DNA from: an uncultured Bacilli bacterium | GTDB taxonomy: Bacteria; Bacillota_I; Bacilli_A; RF39; UBA660 | Direction: 5' to 3' | Assembly: GCA_944329365.1 (NCBI GenBank) | Contig: CALVIC010000008.1 | Span: 1-46,704, forward strand | Length of the DNA stretch: 46,704 nt | Shown: in pieces, positions 4,801 to 12,536 of the stretch | Position numbering within the stretch: the stretch's first letter is position 1 | Layout of the letters: each line of letters opens with the position of its first letter | The notes under the pieces: model-generated | What the model saw: only the letters and a program-made list of their open reading frames with translations | Told to the model about the DNA's origin: nothing | The model's database searches: none | Made by a program: the position numbers and the translations under genes

Positions 4801-7800
4801 ATGAATGCGGAGAGATTGAAAGACTATAATTTTTTAAAAAGTAAGACTATAGATGAGATTTATAGTCTTTTTGATGGACTTTCTGACACAGAGAAAAGAA
4901 GTGTTATAAATAATAAGATTTTTTTGGAAAAGCTTTCGGAAAATGAAGTTTATGATTTATTAAATGGCCTTTCAGAAGATGATTATTTTATTATTTTACA
5001 TAATCCTTATTTTTTAAGAAAAGTTTCTCAAATCAGTTTATTTGAAATTATCCCACTTTTTTCAAACAAACAGCTTTTAGATTTGTTTTCGAATAGTTAT
5101 TTTTTAGAAAAGCTTTCAAAAATCGAAGATCCTAAGCAAGTACTAGATTTATTTGATGAGAATGAGAGAATGAATCTTTTGAGAAATAGTAAGTTTGTTC
5201 AAAAGATAAATTTAGATGGTGAAAAGACGGCAGAATATTTGAAATATAATTTTAGCAAAGTGGAAAAATTTGAACTTTTAAATTATAAATTTATTGCGGA
5301 TGGAATTTCTAGTCAGTATTTGTCTTATTTAGCTCGAGATTTAACTTTAGAGGAACGCACCATATTGTTGAGCAATCCAGATTTTACGGCAAATTTGAAT
5401 GTTTTTAGTATAATGGAAATAGGCAAAGATGTTTTGGTCACAGAAAAATTAGATGGGAAGAGTATTGCAACTTTGGCTTATAATTTACCTCATGATAAAA
5501 GGTATGAAATTATTTATGATGAAAAATTTTTTCAAAAATTAGATGGTGATGGAATAACAAGATTGATATATGATTTTTCTTCCGACGAAAAGTTTTCGAT
5601 AATTAACGATAAGAAGTTCTTTGATAAACTTAGTGGTCAAAATATATGTTATATATGTGAAGAGTTACCAGCAAGTAAAAGGATTAAAGTTATAAGTAAC
5701 CGAGATGTTTTAAATAAACTTGGAGGTAGTGAGATTACTAGCTTAATTTCTGATTTTGATGTGTCTTTGAAGAAAAAGTTTGTTTTTAATGATAAGATAG
5801 CTTGGAAGTTGAATAGTTATAATATAGAACTTTTAAGTTTAGATTTTAGTTTTGAGGATAAGATTCGAGTAATCAATTTATTTTTAGATAGATTACAAGG
5901 TTCAACAATATTTGAACTAGCGAAAGATGGACCGCAGGCTTTGAGGCACAAGTTATTAAGTGATTCGAGAATATTTGAAAAGTTAGATGGTTATCAAATT
6001 TCATGTTTGGTCTCTGATTTTGGGGTGGATGAGAGATTTGATTTTTTAAATAAAGATGAGATGATTAAAAAGTATAAAGATATTGATTTAAGATCATTTA
6101 CGATGGGCTTTTCTGATGATGAGCTTGGTAAGGTTATTTTGAATAATGATTTAATTCGAAATATTAAAACTGATGATTTGATTTTTATTTTGAATTTAGT
6201 GAGTGATTCACAGAAGTTAAGAGTTTTAGATGATGATTTTATTTTAGAAAATCTTTCAATGAGAGATGTATGTTTAATTTGTGAGGATATGGATATAAAT
6301 AAGCGCGGAGAGCTTTTAGAAAAAAACAAAATTCAAAGTAAGATTAAAAATCTTGATGGGATGGACGATTTAAATGGCCGGTGGAAGAGATATTTTGATT
6401 TATTTGGTGGTAAGGCTTTAGACTTGATTAGAAAAAAACCAAAAGAAATTAAGCGAGTAATTGACACTGATAAAATAGATCTTTTGAAGGGATGGTTCGA
6501 TAAAACTGGGCAGAAATTTATTCCACCATTTTATGTAGTATCGGCTTTCCCTTTGAAGGAGGCTAGTAAATTTTTGACCTCTCAGAGAATGTGGAATAGG
6601 TGTTTAAAATATTTTCCACTATCAAGTGATTCTGATAAAATTGCATTTATGAAGTTTGCTTATGCCTTCGGGGTGTTTGATGGCGACGCAGATGGATTTA
6701 CTAAACTTACAAATATTTTGAAACGTGTTCCAAGGTATATAAATAAAATGGAGTATGAAAAATTAAGCAGTGATAAACTTTTTGATTCAAAGTTAAAAGA
6801 GATTAGTGCGAGCGAAGGATTAAAGGGGTTTAAAGGTTTTAGCGATGTTTTTAGAGAAAATAATGGACGATTTACTTTGACTTTAGATGTTCAGAAATAT
6901 CCAAAGACAATGATGGTTTTAAGAAAAAAACTTGAAAATTTAAAAAATCGTGATGTTTTGAGTTTTAACGATATTGTTTCGTTAGCAAATAATTTTGATT
7001 TTATTTATGATAAAAGTTTTTACGGGTTTTTCTTGAAAAATTTAGATGATATTTTTAATAATCAGGATTCAATGATTTATATTTCAGAAATTCAAAGAAG
7101 ATTTGCGGAGATTAAGACTGTCAATAGTAATCGAAAGCTCGATTTGAATTTGGCAGTTAATTATGTTCGAGAAAATAAATACGGATGTGTGATGAGAGGA
7201 AATGAGGAGCTGGCGGAACTTTCCAAGATAGCGGGTTATAATGACGAGGATTTTATGGCTTTGCAGAACATTTACAACGAGGGAAGAAAAAGAGTGTTTA
7301 GTACAATTCCTAGAGTTACCGGGAATATGAAAGGTTATCGTTACGAGATTATTAGACTCGATAATCCGCTTTCTTTGACTATTGGTGTGATGAGTGACTG
7401 TTGTCAAAAGCTTCACGATGCGGCAGAAACTTGTATGGAACACAGTGCAGTTTCAAAGGATGGCAGATTATTTGTCCTTTATGATGAAAGTGGTAATTTA
7501 GTGGCTCAAAGTTGGGTATGGCGAAATAGAGATGTTTTATGTTTTGACAATATTGAGATTCCGAAAAGAGCTTTTAAAAGATTTGACTCGACGAGTGAGA
7601 GGACTAAATTTACGAATGATGTTTTTGATGCTTATATGAAATGTGCGAGAGAGATGTTTATCAAGGATGAGAAGGTTTATAAGAGTCTTTTAGAAGAGGG
7701 TAAAATTACAAGAGATGATTTTAATGGCTTGAGGCTTGGAAAGATTACAATAGGTCTTGGTTATAATGATATTGCAAGTGTGATTCAAAATAAATTAAAT

Positions 7801-8313
7801 AGGGATGAAGATATATTAGTAAGACCGGCTTCTTTTGTGCCACCAGTTCCACTTAATAAAGATTTATATGTGATGGATTCAGAAATTCAATATGTGGTGC
7901 TTAAAAGGGATGATCGGATTTACTCTGATAAGGAAGCTTTAGATATTTATTATGATGAGGCAAAAAGTTATAAATTAAAGGACACTTTAGATATTTTGAA
8001 GAGGGTTTTAGACTTAGATTCTGATATTTTGGTTTTAAAAAGATTGGAAGAAGACGGAATGAATTTAAATTTGGTTAAAGTTACTTTGAGTCCGAATTTA
8101 ATAATCGTTTATGAAGAGGATACTGATAAGGTTAGAGTTTGGAAAGTGTTTATAAACGATAATATTTTAGATGATGATTATAAAAAGAGTGTACTATGGC
8201 AATTTAAAAATAATTTAAAAGAAATAGCTTCTTCACGAAGAATAGAGATAATTGAGGGGGCAATTACTCAAGATGGTTTGGATGAGAAATGGGGGCGTGG
8301 ATATGGAAGATAA
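4801..8313 (+). CDS. Giant alpha-solenoid repeat protein with CCQ/AQSW domain
   Basis: A 1170-residue protein with no signal peptide or membrane helix, so it is likely cytoplasmic. Residues 16-515 consist of about 17 repeats, most of exactly 30 residues, each ending in a motif like NDKKFFDKL and having two short helices (for example 16-45, 46-75, 76-105, 218-247, 248-277, 278-307, 308-337). One unit near 200-217 is degenerate. The region 520-790 is helical. Residues about 850-925 form a conserved domain with SDCCQKL (Cys867, Cys868), AQSWVWR (901-908) and FDNIEI, faintly like the PcfJ C-terminal domain; I regard that as tentative. The start follows the previous gene by 17 bases with SD GGGTGAT, and its end overlaps the next gene by 11 bases. 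The function is unknown. Confidence 0.7.
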   Translation: MNAERLKDYNFLKSKTIDEIYSLFDGLSDTEKRSVINNKIFLEKLSENEVYDLLNGLSEDDYFIILHNPYFLRKVSQISLFEIIPLFSNKQLLDLFSNSYFLEKLSKIEDPKQVLDLFDENERMNLLRNSKFVQKINLDGEKTAEYLKYNFSKVEKFELLNYKFIADGISSQYLSYLARDLTLEERTILLSNPDFTANLNVFSIMEIGKDVLVTEKLDGKSIATLAYNLPHDKRYEIIYDEKFFQKLDGDGITRLIYDFSSDEKFSIINDKKFFDKLSGQNICYICEELPASKRIKVISNRDVLNKLGGSEITSLISDFDVSLKKKFVFNDKIAWKLNSYNIELLSLDFSFEDKIRVINLFLDRLQGSTIFELAKDGPQALRHKLLSDSRIFEKLDGYQISCLVSDFGVDERFDFLNKDEMIKKYKDIDLRSFTMGFSDDELGKVILNNDLIRNIKTDDLIFILNLVSDSQKLRVLDDDFILENLSMRDVCLICEDMDINKRGELLEKNKIQSKIKNLDGMDDLNGRWKRYFDLFGGKALDLIRKKPKEIKRVIDTDKIDLLKGWFDKTGQKFIPPFYVVSAFPLKEASKFLTSQRMWNRCLKYFPLSSDSDKIAFMKFAYAFGVFDGDADGFTKLTNILKRVPRYINKMEYEKLSSDKLFDSKLKEISASEGLKGFKGFSDVFRENNGRFTLTLDVQKYPKTMMVLRKKLENLKNRDVLSFNDIVSLANNFDFIYDKSFYGFFLKNLDDIFNNQDSMIYISEIQRRFAEIKTVNSNRKLDLNLAVNYVRENKYGCVMRGNEELAELSKIAGYNDEDFMALQNIYNEGRKRVFSTIPRVTGNMKGYRYEIIRLDNPLSLTIGVMSDCCQKLHDAAETCMEHSAVSKDGRLFVLYDESGNLVAQSWVWRNRDVLCFDNIEIPKRAFKRFDSTSERTKFTNDVFDAYMKCAREMFIKDEKVYKSLLEEGKITRDDFNGLRLGKITIGLGYNDIASVIQNKLNRDEDILVRPASFVPPVPLNKDLYVMDSEIQYVVLKRDDRIYSDKEALDIYYDEAKSYKLKDTLDILKRVLDLDSDILVLKRLEEDGMNLNLVKVTLSPNLIIVYEEDTDKVRVWKVFINDNILDDDYKKSVLWQFKNNLKEIASSRRIEIIEGAITQDGLDEKWGRGYGR

Positions 8314-9241
8314 AATTAACGATGCTCTTTTGGTTAAAAAGGACAATTTTAAGATTGATGAGATTAATATTATTTTTGACGAGATTATTCAAAGTTTAGA
8401 TACGAGTGATTTTATTAGGGCAAATTTAATTGATGTCCAAAGAAAAAACGGTTTTAAGGTGTCTTTAGATGTCTTTAAACGGATAAGAGAGGCAATTCGC
8501 AATGAAAAAATTGTTTACGGAACAGTAACTTTAGATATTAAGGATAAAGAAATTAGTTATGGTAAACAGATTTTTGACAAGGGAGTTGTTTTGGCAATTA
8601 CTGATGGCGATGTTTATACTAATTTTGAACTTATTTTACGAAATCTTTTGGCTTATAATACAGTTATTTTTGAAGATAATGGTTATATGATTGGAACTAA
8701 TGGATTTGTTTTTAGGATAGTTAGAAGCGTTTTAGAAAAATATGGATATGGTGCTAATTTGATTCAGTGGACAAATTTGGATTTGGAGTTTGCTGATTTT
8801 GCAAACGTCGATTTGGTTATTTGTGTTGGGAGTCACTTTATTCAAAGAAAAGTTTTGGAAAGGTCAAAGAGTGAGACACTGGTTAGTGGTTATAATTATT
8901 TTGATATTTATATTGAGAGTGATAAACATATGGATTTTATTAGAAAAATAGTTAGTCTTAATTTGAATCTTAATTTATATGTTAAAGACGGGATAAAAAA
9001 TGATTTTGATAATGTAATTTGGGTTAGTGATTTAGATGAGGCTATAGGTCAAATTAATTATAATGGAAATGGATTTAGTACAGCTATTTTTACTGATGAT
9101 AATGCGGCAGCTTCTAAGTTTATTAAAGAGGTTAAGTCTTCTATTATAGTTGTTAATACTAGTCCTTCAATTGAGAGAATTTTGGATATAAGGCAAAGTG
9201 ATTTGGTAAGGTTTAAGAGTATTATTTATCCGAGTGCATGA
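8303..9241 (+). CDS. ProA-like ALDH-fold pseudoenzyme
   Basis: A 312-residue protein resembling gamma-glutamyl-phosphate reductase (ProA). The resemblance is clearest at the C terminus, where VWVSDLDEAIGQINYNG, AIFTDDNAAASKFIKEV and IIVVNTS follow the ProA pattern. The nucleotide-binding half is recognisable but divergent. At the place where ProA has its catalytic cysteine (CNALET) this protein reads SLNLNLNLYVKD, with no cysteine. It is about 100 residues shorter than ProA and there is no proB nearby. The start is ATG 8303, overlapping the solenoid gene by 11 bases. It is probably a non-catalytic partner of that protein. Fold assignment is moderate; function is unknown. Confidence 0.65.
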   Translation: MEDKINDALLVKKDNFKIDEINIIFDEIIQSLDTSDFIRANLIDVQRKNGFKVSLDVFKRIREAIRNEKIVYGTVTLDIKDKEISYGKQIFDKGVVLAITDGDVYTNFELILRNLLAYNTVIFEDNGYMIGTNGFVFRIVRSVLEKYGYGANLIQWTNLDLEFADFANVDLVICVGSHFIQRKVLERSKSETLVSGYNYFDIYIESDKHMDFIRKIVSLNLNLNLYVKDGIKNDFDNVIWVSDLDEAIGQINYNGNGFSTAIFTDDNAAASKFIKEVKSSIIVVNTSPSIERILDIRQSDLVRFKSIIYPSA

Positions 9242-9326: not shown

Positions 9327-9353
9327 AAAAAGCGCAAAATTGATGCGCTTTTT
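9327..9353. terminator. Bidirectional terminator between the five-gene unit and lexA
   Basis: AAAAAGCGCA and TGCGCTTTTT pair around a 7-base loop, with A-runs and T-runs on both sides. It serves the leftward lexA gene (its stop lies in the stem) and can end the rightward unit finishing at 9241. Bases 9242-9326 contain no gene. Confidence 0.8.
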
Positions 9354-9969
9354 ATAGTTTTCGATATAATCCAATAGCTTTACCTAAGATTGTTACATTG
9401 TCCAGAATGATTGGGCTCATGGTGTCGTTTTCTGGTTGTAAGCGAATGTGACCGTTTTCTTTATAAAATGTTTTTAAAGTTACGGTATTTTCACCTGTCA
9501 TAGCTACAACTATTTCACCGTTGCGAGCGGTGTTTTGTCTTTCGATAATTACGATATCACCATCATAGATACCGGCGTTAATCATAGATGTTCCATCGAC
9601 TTCAAGGGTGAATACTTCTTTTCCTTTTGGAAGTAAATAAGTTGGAAGTGGGAAGTATTCATCGGGAACTTCTATAGCTTCAATAGGTGATCCAGCGGCA
9701 GTTTTACCGAGCAAGGGTACTTCAGAGACGAGATCATTTTCCTTGTCGAATTCGTTTTTTACTAATAATTCGATGGCTCTATTTTTAGAACCGTCTTTTT
9801 TAATGAATCCTTTAGCTTCAAGGTTAGCTAAGTGAGCATGAATAGTTGCTGGTGATGAAATGTTTAGAGCTTTCCCGATTTCTCTGACTGTCGGCGGGTA
9901 ACCATGTGATACAATGTAGCTTTTGACATAGTTTAAGACATCGGTTTGTCTTCTTGTTAATTTTTCCAT
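9352..9969 (-). CDS. lexA: SOS repressor LexA
   Basis: A 205-residue SOS repressor. The N-terminal winged helix-turn-helix (residues 1-65, PPTVREIGKALNISSPATIHAHL) binds SOS boxes. The C-terminal S24 peptidase domain holds the self-cleavage site Ala92-Gly93 (TAAGSPI), nucleophile Ser128 (DGTSM) and Lys166 (TVTLK). RecA filaments stimulate the cleavage. The start is ATG at 9969, because AAAGGAGGT lies at the right distance; a longer reading to 10008 has no SD. It diverges from a small SOS gene, and three SOS boxes lie between them. Confidence 0.97.
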   Translation of the reverse strand: MEKLTRRQTDVLNYVKSYIVSHGYPPTVREIGKALNISSPATIHAHLANLEAKGFIKKDGSKNRAIELLVKNEFDKENDLVSEVPLLGKTAAGSPIEAIEVPDEYFPLPTYLLPKGKEVFTLEVDGTSMINAGIYDGDIVIIERQNTARNGEIVVAMTGENTVTLKTFYKENGHIRLQPENDTMSPIILDNVTILGKAIGLYRKL

Positions 9970-9998: not shown

Positions 9999-10027
9999 AT
10001 TTTAACACGAATTGTTATAGATGTCAA
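9999..10027 (-). promoter_or_regulatory. lexA promoter
   Basis: On the minus strand TTGACA (10022-10027) and TAAAAT (9999-10004) are 17 bases apart. The LexA box at 10025-10038 overlaps the -35 element, so LexA should repress its own gene. Confidence 0.75.
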
Positions 10028-10038
10028 ACATTTGTTTG
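10025..10038. promoter_or_regulatory. SOS box 1 (LexA operator)
   Basis: CAAACATTTGTTTG is a perfect 14-base palindrome that matches the Bacillota SOS box apart from A for G at the second position on each side. It covers the -35 of lexA. Confidence 0.75.
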
Positions 10039-10050
10039 ATTTTATAAAAG

Positions 10051-10064
10051 CGAACAAATGTTTT
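10051..10064. promoter_or_regulatory. SOS box 2 (LexA operator)
   Basis: CGAACAAATGTTTT has an excellent left half and a weaker right half. It lies midway between the lexA and small-gene promoters, 26 bases from box 1 and 29 from box 3 (start to start). Confidence 0.7.
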
Positions 10065-10073
10065 TAAAATGTA

Positions 10074-10102
10074 TTGACACGAACATATATTCGTAATATA
10101 AT
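10074..10102 (+). promoter_or_regulatory. SOS promoter of the 44-residue gene, with SOS box 3 in the spacer
   Basis: TTGACA (10074-10079) and TATAAT (10097-10102) are both consensus with a 17-base spacer. The spacer starts with CGAACATATATTCG (10080-10093), a near-consensus LexA box. This is a strong promoter that should be silent until LexA is cleaved. Confidence 0.88.
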
Positions 10103-10126
10103 TTAAGTACAAGAGGAGGGATAAAA

Positions 10127-10261
10127 ATGGAAATGTTAAAAAGCAAACCGATTATAGCTTTAATTATTATGATTTTGGGGGTGAGTTATTTATCCGCCCT
10201 CGGAAATAATGGGGTTCAAAGTCAAAGTGATTCTAATGAAGCCATTAATGTGCAAGCATAA
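10127..10261 (+). CDS. SOS-induced small membrane peptide in yneA/sosA position
   Basis: A 44-residue ORF preceded by a strong SD (AGAGGAGGG). It has a basic start (MEMLKSKP), one hydrophobic helix at about residues 9-26, and a short polar tail ending INVQA. LexA-controlled promoter, divergence from lexA, and a downstream tkt-yneF pair match the position of yneA in B. subtilis and sosA in Staphylococcus, whose products are membrane cell-division inhibitors made during SOS. It is shorter than both and has no LysM domain. A terminator follows, so it is a single-gene unit. Role as a division inhibitor is inferred from context; existence of the gene is well supported. Confidence 0.75.
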   Translation: MEMLKSKPIIALIIMILGVSYLSALGNNGVQSQSDSNEAINVQA

Positions 10262-10275
10262 ATTTGTTTAAATCC

Positions 10276-10296
10276 AGTCATTTTAATGACTTTTTT
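10276..10296 (+). terminator. Terminator of the SOS mini-gene
   Basis: AGTCAT and ATGACT pair around a TTTA loop, followed by a run of six T. It separates the mini-gene from tkt. Confidence 0.7.
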
Positions 10297-10367
10297 CTAT
10301 TTATTAAATATGGTATAATTTTTATGGAAGTTATGGATGATATGACTTTTTAGAATTGAGGGATAAA

Positions 10368-12266
10368 ATGGATGAAAGAATTATTAACAACATAAAGTCT
10401 TTAGGAATTGATATGATTGAAAAGGCCGGAAGTGGACATCCGGGGATTGTTTTATCCGCGGCCCCACTTATATATACAATTTATGCAAATTATTTGAATA
10501 TTAATAAGGATGATCAAAAATGGATGAATCGAGATAGATTTGTCTTGTCAGCTGGTCATGGTTCAGCTTTACTTTATGCAACTTTATATATGGCCGGTTA
10601 TTTGAGTTTAGATGATTTGAAAAAATTTAGACAAATAGGTAGTGTTACATCTGGTCACCCTGAATATGGGGTTACACCAGGGGTTGAAATGAGTACGGGT
10701 CCACTTGGACAGGGGTTTGCTTCGGCTGTAGGAATGGCAATGGCAGAAAAGCATTTAGAAGCAAAGTATCCCAAAATATTTAATTATAAGGTTTATGTAA
10801 TATGTGGCGATGGGGATCTTATGGAAGGAATTAGTTATGAAGCTTCTTCTTTAGCGGGAACTTTGAAACTTAATAATTTAATTGTTTTATATGATTCTAA
10901 TAGTATTTGTTTAGATGGTGAGACAAGTAAGACGTTTAACGATGATGTTCCTTTAAGATTTAAGGCTTTGGGATGGAATGTTATAGAAATAGATAGTGAT
11001 TATAAGAAGATAGATAAGGCTTTAAGAGATGCTCAAGATAGCGATAAACCTGTTTTGATTAAAGTTAAGACAGTTATTGGTGAAGGTTCTTATTTAGAAG
11101 GAACTAACAAGGTTCACGGAAGTCCTTTGGCGGAAGATGATTATAAACAGTTGAAAGAGAAATTAGGTTTTATTTCACCTTTTGAAGTAGATATGGAGGC
11201 GAAAAGATATTTTGAGGATAAGATTAGTTCGAGAACTATAGTTAAATATAATGATTTTTTAGATAATTATGAAAAATATGGTGATAAGGATTTAGAATAT
11301 TTTAAACGAGGAAGAATAAGTTATAGTATTGATAAAAGCGACTTTGAGGCTTTGGATGTTCAAAGTACAAGAGACAGTAGCGGTATAGTTTTAAATCATT
11401 TAGCTTCACAAATTCCAAGTTTGTTTGGTGGTAGTGCGGATCTTTCTAGTTCGACTAAAACTTATTTAAAGAATATGGGTGATTTTTCTTGCTTTAATTA
11501 TTCTGGACGCAATATTTGGTTTGGTGTTAGAGAGCATGCGATGGGCGCGATTTTAAATGGTCTTGCTTTAAGTGGCTTTAGAAGTTTTGGGTCAACTTTC
11601 TTTGCTTTTTCTGATTATGTTAAACCGGCCATGAGACTTAGTGCGTTTATGGATTTGCCAGTTACTTATATATTTACTCATGATTCTATTAATATTGGAA
11701 TGGATGGTCCAACTCATCAGCCGGTTGAACAACTTGCGGCTTTAAGGAGTATACCTAATATGACAGTTTATCGGCCAGCTGATTTAAATGAGGTTATTGG
11801 AGCTTATGAGAATGTTTTAGATAGAAAAAAGCCGAGTGCGCTAGTTTTAGCAAGAATGGCAACGCCTAATTTAAAGGAGACTGATGCTAATTTGGTTAGC
11901 AGGGGAGCTTATACTGTATTAAAAGAGAAAGGTGAGCTTAAGGCAATTTTAATTGCGACAGGTACTGAAGTTTCTTTAGCAATAGATGTGGCTTCTAAAC
12001 TAGGTGCGGGAATTAGAGTTGTTAGTATGCCATCGATGGAACTTTTTGAAGAGCAGAGCGATGATTATAAATGTGAAATTTTACCTAAGGTTCAGACTTT
12101 CTTTATTGAAGCGGGAAGTTCTTACGGTTTAAGAAAATATGTGAGTGATGATGAGCATTTGATTACAATCGATAAATTTGGAGCAAGTGGAAATACTTCT
12201 TCGGTTTTAGATTATATGGACTTTAGCTTTGAAAAAGTTTATGAAAGAATAAAAAAAGTGTTGTAA
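10368..12266 (+). CDS. tkt: Transketolase
   Basis: A 632-residue thiamine-diphosphate enzyme of the non-oxidative pentose phosphate pathway. The N-terminal domain shows GSGHPG, SAGHGSALLYA, the STGPLGQG loop, and the cofactor motif GDGDLMEG...N. The pyrimidine domain shows the catalytic glutamate in WFGVREHAMG and THDSINIGMDGPTHQP. The length is slightly short of the usual 660. The start is ATG 10368 with SD GAGGG; an in-frame TTG at 10356 lies upstream of the SD. An extended -10 (TGGTATAAT, 10311-10319) is the likely promoter. Position between the lexA region and yneF matches B. subtilis. Confidence 0.96.
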   Translation: MDERIINNIKSLGIDMIEKAGSGHPGIVLSAAPLIYTIYANYLNINKDDQKWMNRDRFVLSAGHGSALLYATLYMAGYLSLDDLKKFRQIGSVTSGHPEYGVTPGVEMSTGPLGQGFASAVGMAMAEKHLEAKYPKIFNYKVYVICGDGDLMEGISYEASSLAGTLKLNNLIVLYDSNSICLDGETSKTFNDDVPLRFKALGWNVIEIDSDYKKIDKALRDAQDSDKPVLIKVKTVIGEGSYLEGTNKVHGSPLAEDDYKQLKEKLGFISPFEVDMEAKRYFEDKISSRTIVKYNDFLDNYEKYGDKDLEYFKRGRISYSIDKSDFEALDVQSTRDSSGIVLNHLASQIPSLFGGSADLSSSTKTYLKNMGDFSCFNYSGRNIWFGVREHAMGAILNGLALSGFRSFGSTFFAFSDYVKPAMRLSAFMDLPVTYIFTHDSINIGMDGPTHQPVEQLAALRSIPNMTVYRPADLNEVIGAYENVLDRKKPSALVLARMATPNLKETDANLVSRGAYTVLKEKGELKAILIATGTEVSLAIDVASKLGAGIRVVSMPSMELFEEQSDDYKCEILPKVQTFFIEAGSSYGLRKYVSDDEHLITIDKFGASGNTSSVLDYMDFSFEKVYERIKKVL

Positions 12267-12311: not shown

Positions 12312-12536
12312 ATGGACTGGGGAGCATTTTTACTTGATTTACTTAAAATTATAGGTGGTTTAATTGTTGGAGTTATTATTGGTTTCTTTGTGGCAAGGAA
12401 GGTAATGAAGAAGCAACTTGCTGAAAATCCACCGATTAACGAAAAAATGATTAAAGCAATGATGAGTGGCATGGGAAGGACTCCAAGCCAAAAACAAGTA
12501 AATCAAATGATGAAGTCAATGAAAAAATATATGTAA
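12312..12536 (+). CDS. yneF: UPF0154 membrane protein YneF
   Basis: A 74-residue protein of the UPF0154/YneF family, function unknown. An N-terminal transmembrane helix spans about residues 6-28. It is followed by the conserved ENPPINEKMIKAMMSGMG segment and PSQKQVNQMMKSM. The start is ATG 12312 with SD GAGGAGG; the in-frame upstream extension to 12267 lies over the promoter. The order tkt-yneF is conserved with B. subtilis. Confidence 0.9.
   Translation: MDWGAFLLDLLKIIGGLIVGVIIGFFVARKVMKKQLAENPPINEKMIKAMMSGMGRTPSQKQVNQMMKSMKKYM

Follow-up and report, generated by a model that had tools for sequence, protein, structure and literature searches.

In Caulobacter, the very small SOS membrane peptide SidA stops cell division. 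In Bacillus, the helix of YneA binds to TM7 of FtsW and septal wall synthesis is blocked through the LysM domain, and YneA deprived of LysM localises without blocking division in B. subtilis (PMC13396833). SosA of Staphylococcus has no LysM domain and stops division via its membrane-proximal outside part, and SosA shortened by 30-40 residues is inactive (PMC6851548). CtpA digests YneA, and one of the C-terminal residues of YneA influences its stability (PMC6051672); the clearance of SosA is also carried out by CtpA (PMC6851548). ChiZ and DivS of Actinobacteria are likewise SOS membrane division inhibitors (PMC6851548).

In our study, a window of 46,704 nucleotides (the whole stretch of DNA that was analysed) from a member of a family of uncultured gut Bacilli was found to carry a 44-codon ORF with an ATG start at 10127-10261 (+) in the divergent spacer between lexA and tkt. 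The SOS repressor gene lexA (9352-9969, minus strand) encodes 205 amino acids (Pfam LexA_DNA_bind, 1e-23; Peptidase_S24, 3.4e-33) and has a promoter TTGACA-17-TAAAAT with 11 of 12 consensus matches at 9999-10027 on the minus strand, the -35 being at 10027-10022. The promoter scan placed the promoter of the peptide gene at 10074-10102 (+), where the -35 TTGACA (10074-10079) and the -10 TATAAT (10097-10102) are separated by 17 nt and all 12 positions match the consensus. The LexA box CGAACATATATTCG (10080-10093) begins directly 3' of this -35 and fills the spacer, as the initial annotation had described. Pattern matching identified two extra LexA-like boxes closer to lexA, of which CGAACAAATGTTTT (10051-10064) is present between both promoters and CAAACATTTGTTTG (10025-10038) overlaps the -35 of lexA. 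A Shine-Dalgarno sequence AGGAGG (10114-10119, +) is located seven bases 5' of the ATG, and the 44-residue product MEMLKSKPIIALIIMILGVSYLSALGNNGVQSQSDSNEAINVQA is predicted to be a single-pass membrane peptide with one helix at residues 7-31; the strong Shine-Dalgarno mini-ORF and the single helix noted at the outset were thus both recovered.

The terminator that had been assigned to this gene stands only in part. A hairpin with a 6-bp stem, 2 G-C pairs and a T-run is indeed present 3' of the stop codon (10276-10297, +), but it is weak (-4.6 kcal/mol, z -1.65), the terminator scan did not call it, and terminator-like stems were observed behind the peptide gene in just 9 of 142 relatives, so that the element is not conserved. 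Downstream lies the transketolase gene tkt (10368-12266, +), as it does at the yneA loci of Bacillus and Listeria, and it is followed by yneF/UPF0154 (12312-12536, +; PF03672, 1e-29). On the other side, a 313-residue protein (8300-9241) is convergent with lexA and shows a weak aldehyde dehydrogenase match just below the Pfam cut-off; it is perhaps a divergent ProA-like protein. A 1170-residue ORF at 4801-8313 with degenerate repeats of the type LDGxxIxxLxxDFSxDEKxxIINDKKFFDKL has no Pfam match.

The conservation of the ORF was analysed at the upstream side of lexA in 170 loci, of which 164 had enough sequence. Publicly available relatives that bear a name are metagenome bins filed under uncultured Bacilli, Candidatus Pelethosoma and Candidatus Onthousia. 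An ORF of 30-70 codons with a Shine-Dalgarno sequence and a membrane helix was found opposite lexA in 141 of these 164 loci, which are partly dependent (many are near-duplicates, and a few belong to another family or have doubtful starts). Absence from relatives had been named beforehand as a possible refutation, and the result does not bear it out. Dinucleotide shuffles gave such an ORF in 3.4% of cases and the reverse strand in 8 of 164 loci, and chance is therefore excluded as its origin. The gene is absent from about one locus in seven, whereas all 42 lexA loci of the same genus with enough upstream sequence possess it. After curation 138 peptides remained, 40-58 residues long with a median of 46, and clustering at 75% identity reduced them to 104; the peptide is hence the norm of the family and not an oddity of one genome. 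Among 395 genomes of the class, a profile built from 89 members matched 28 at E<=1e-5, every one of them in the own family of the source genome, where they span many genera. Of 28 strong matches in genomes with a known lexA place, 27 sit at lexA. At a lenient E of 1 the profile reached 238 of the family's 243 genomes and 147 of its 148 genera, a figure that includes chance matches to other helices.

The peptide frame is under purifying selection, with a pooled dN/dS of 0.24 within the genus (136 pairs), which is lower in the helix (0.14) than in the tail (0.34). Lys7 and Ile10 are invariant in the 42 sequences and Gly18, Val19 and Tyr21 are kept in 41 of them; a test for a conserved helical face found none (p 0.78). 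The promoter is conserved along with the peptide. The layout consisting of TTGACA, a LexA box at offset 5-7 and a -10 is present at 133 of the 141 loci with the peptide versus 2 of the 23 without it (p 6e-18), and of these two promoter-bearing loci the one that was read (L093) keeps a shortened version of 28 residues. The gene downstream of the peptide varies among genera (tkt or yneF, with polA, glycosyltransferases and others recognised by eye) while the peptide persists. The 44-residue ORF thus belongs to a real and conserved family of micropeptides with LexA-boxed promoters.

Some loci depart from the common arrangement. The shortened ORF at L093 starts about 118 nt upstream of lexA with the LexA-boxed promoter and the Shine-Dalgarno sequence intact, and L152 carries the same promoter. 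At L144, L145 and L146 the peptide is located about 320 nt from lexA rather than about 130 nt; in L144, which was read, the LexA-boxed promoter stays near lexA and so leaves a leader of about 200 nt before the peptide. One genome of the same genus has a second lexA (contig G065:C20, L109), accompanied by a separate peptide of the kind typical of a different genus, and this contig is probably a contamination.

Comparison with YneA, based on fetched database records, has shown that the position described in the initial annotation for yneA and sosA holds for this gene, which is divergent beside lexA with tkt downstream as in the compared yneA loci. In Bacillus velezensis and Listeria, yneA occupies the same spot in the order lexA, yneA, (yneB), ynzC, tkt; in B. 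velezensis, where the order was recorded as lexA / yneA / tkt, the yneA start is 155 nt from lexA and the promoter has a box in its spacer. YneA of Bacillus and Listeria therefore resembles the peptide in being divergent from lexA at about 155 nt, with a LexA box in the promoter spacer and tkt downstream, and the peptide likewise lies upstream of the ynzC-tkt-yneF region under a promoter that by sequence is of the LexA-controlled YneA type. Both have an N-terminal helix, which in the peptide is single and predicted to leave the C-terminus outside, and some members share a hydrophobic stretch with Asn at the C-terminal end. In contrast, YneA has about 100 residues and a LysM domain which it needs, whereas the peptide has 44 residues and no LysM. 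The LysM domain is absent from the family matches of every member, and in the source genome it occurs just in frames of 191-492 amino acids.

The dissimilarity in sequence to YneA that had been claimed was borne out as well. None of the 89 members scored above the curated threshold of the YneA model (NCBIfam NF010723); two of them matched with a best E of 0.01, and the window peptide gave no match; the hhalign comparison of the peptide profile with YneA was not significant (probability 4.8%). Across 395 genomes of the class, the YneA model found no full-length YneA, and the control B. subtilis was found. Identity with YneA by sequence is rejected on the model cut-off, the hhalign result and the missing LysM. 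In its position, its promoter layout and its topology the peptide is a counterpart of YneA. We make no claim of common descent because the profile comparison is not significant, and descent from a YneA-like ancestor through loss of LysM is a possible origin.

The peptide is also shorter than SosA (77 residues), in agreement with the initial annotation. SosA, set beside it by description alone, likewise lacks LysM; it is an SOS protein encoded beside lexA that spans the membrane once and has its C-terminus outside (PMC6851548), but it has its own conserved membrane-proximal residues. SidA is similar in its tiny size and perhaps in logic, and belongs to another phylum with another gene position. 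ChiZ and DivS, also compared by description alone, come from other lineages, and ChiZ carries LysM. The search against solved structures gave weak, chance-like matches to potassium channels and nothing more. A literature search found no description of the peptide, which is no proof of novelty. The best inference is that the family represents a new LysM-less variant among the SOS membrane division inhibitors.

In the source genome, recA (L289), ruvA (L284) and two Y-family polymerase genes (L279, L287) are each preceded by a LexA box of this type, and a further LexA-like box precedes a stretch of two genes, one of which is uvrA (L282). In L282 (775-1251 and 1314-1327), a DUF7666 protein lies between the LexA-like box and uvrA, and may be another member of the SOS regulon. 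A lenient LexA pattern gave no excess over the reversed control across the own genome, and for this reason only the named boxes before SOS genes were used; the case for LexA control rests on the positions of the boxes and their conservation, not on their count. Control of the peptide gene by LexA is plausible in the source genome, and the SOS control sites proposed for it are supported at the sequence level by the promoter, the boxes and the conserved layout.

On balance, we favour with some confidence the reading of the product as a LexA-repressed bitopic membrane peptide, a LysM-less SOS division inhibitor of the YneA/SosA class directed at FtsW and cleared by a CtpA-type protease. After DNA damage, RecA-activated LexA would cleave itself and free the consensus promoter, whose control elements are read from the sequence. 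Following the positive-inside rule, the peptide would insert with its lysine-rich end inside and the acidic tail outside; the family members carry a charge of about +2 at the N-terminus and about -1.4 in the tail. The helix, with conserved residues such as Gly18, Ser20 and Tyr21, may then bind the septal wall synthesis complex, foremost FtsW, and by analogy with YneA the bound peptide would delay septation till the damage is repaired. The source genome encodes three FtsW/RodA/SpoVE proteins, and members of the order RF39 are predicted to retain a thin peptidoglycan wall (PMC10868615), so that a septal wall target would be available provided that the genome belongs to this order.

For clearance, a hydrophobic C-terminal motif ending in Asn is present in 49 of the 104 members against 6.6 in shuffles, and two of five fetched YneA sequences, too few for a test, end alike (AIVN and FVMNQE). 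CtpA-like proteases read C-termini, and one C-terminal residue of YneA affects its stability (PMC6051672); the conserved end [I/V]-x-[hydrophobic]-N can therefore be read, as for YneA and SosA, as a putative tag for clearance by the sole S41/CtpA-type protease, the genome encoding one S41 protease. The strongest objection to this division-inhibitor reading is that YneA stripped of LysM is inactive in B. subtilis (PMC13396833), which is also what makes the case worth testing. The inactivity of shortened SosA (PMC6851548), the non-significant profile comparison with YneA, the missing helical-face signal and the loci that lack the gene weigh against it too. With LysM absent, its part in YneA would have to be taken over either by contacts of the helix or by the short tail. 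A stricter version, in which the helix and a 19-residue tail of a naturally LysM-free FtsW inhibitor block septal synthesis while the C-terminus times the end of arrest, is tentative and rather doubtful.

Other functions can be considered for a small SOS membrane peptide. TisB is a small LexA-controlled peptide with a single hydrophobic helix, and a peptide resembling it in these respects could lower the membrane potential and lead to dormancy rather than block the divisome. We regard this as unlikely, since the kept helix residues (K7 and I10 invariant; G18, V19 and Y21 in 41 of 42) exceed the needs of a pore former, the position and promoter match yneA, and the acidic tail with its conserved end is unlike TisB. 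The Rfam scan of the window also gave no match to an antisense RNA family, although an undescribed antisense RNA would escape Rfam. A different role in the SOS response, for example as adaptor to a membrane protease, transporter or other envelope protein, is about as improbable; adaptor functions are common among small membrane proteins and division arrest is itself deduced, but the studied Bacillota genes at this locus encode the division inhibitors YneA and SosA (PMC13396833, PMC6851548).

Slightly less probable still is a secreted peptide, in which the hydrophobic part would be a cleaved signal peptide and a C-terminal part of about 20 residues would be released as a signal or effector. The conserved C-terminal end and weak NCBIfam matches to pheromone families are in its favour, and residues 22 and 24 fit the -3/-1 pattern of signal peptidase in 19 of 22 representatives of the genus of the window, but outside this genus just 18 of 82 representatives show the pattern. 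Many relatives pass from the helix directly into R-[VIF]-x-x-[LI]-[END] without such a site, the predicted helix extends to residue 31, and the neighbours are lexA and tkt with no adjacent receptor gene; the combination of signal peptide and adjacent receptor typical of RRNPP-type pheromones was thus not found, the pattern being missing in most other genera. A spurious ORF or leader within the lexA-tkt spacer, which shortness and lack of annotation might suggest, is extremely improbable. It is ruled out by the conservation at 141 of 164 loci, the dN/dS of 0.24 and the co-occurrence of promoter and peptide, which are also lost together (p 6e-18); moreover, the peptide stays although the downstream gene changes.

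If the peptide is a division inhibitor, a division checkpoint after DNA damage would exist for a whole family of small-genome uncultured gut bacteria, and its genes of 40-58 codons fall mostly under the usual length cut-off of annotation. It would also raise a question for YneA, since the Bacillus protein needs LysM whereas this family keeps the helix and a short tail alone; should the short form prove active, it would mark out the minimal portion needed to halt synthesis of the septal wall.

At L120, L123 and L307, which represent a genus from a different family within the class, inferred to be Enterococcus-like from its ynzC neighbour, an unrelated 57-residue ORF with a single helix and no LysM lies between lexA and ynzC, divergent and about 150 nt upstream of lexA, with three LexA boxes. 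The sister genomes L122 and L308 do not have it. This ORF is possibly another SOS membrane peptide.
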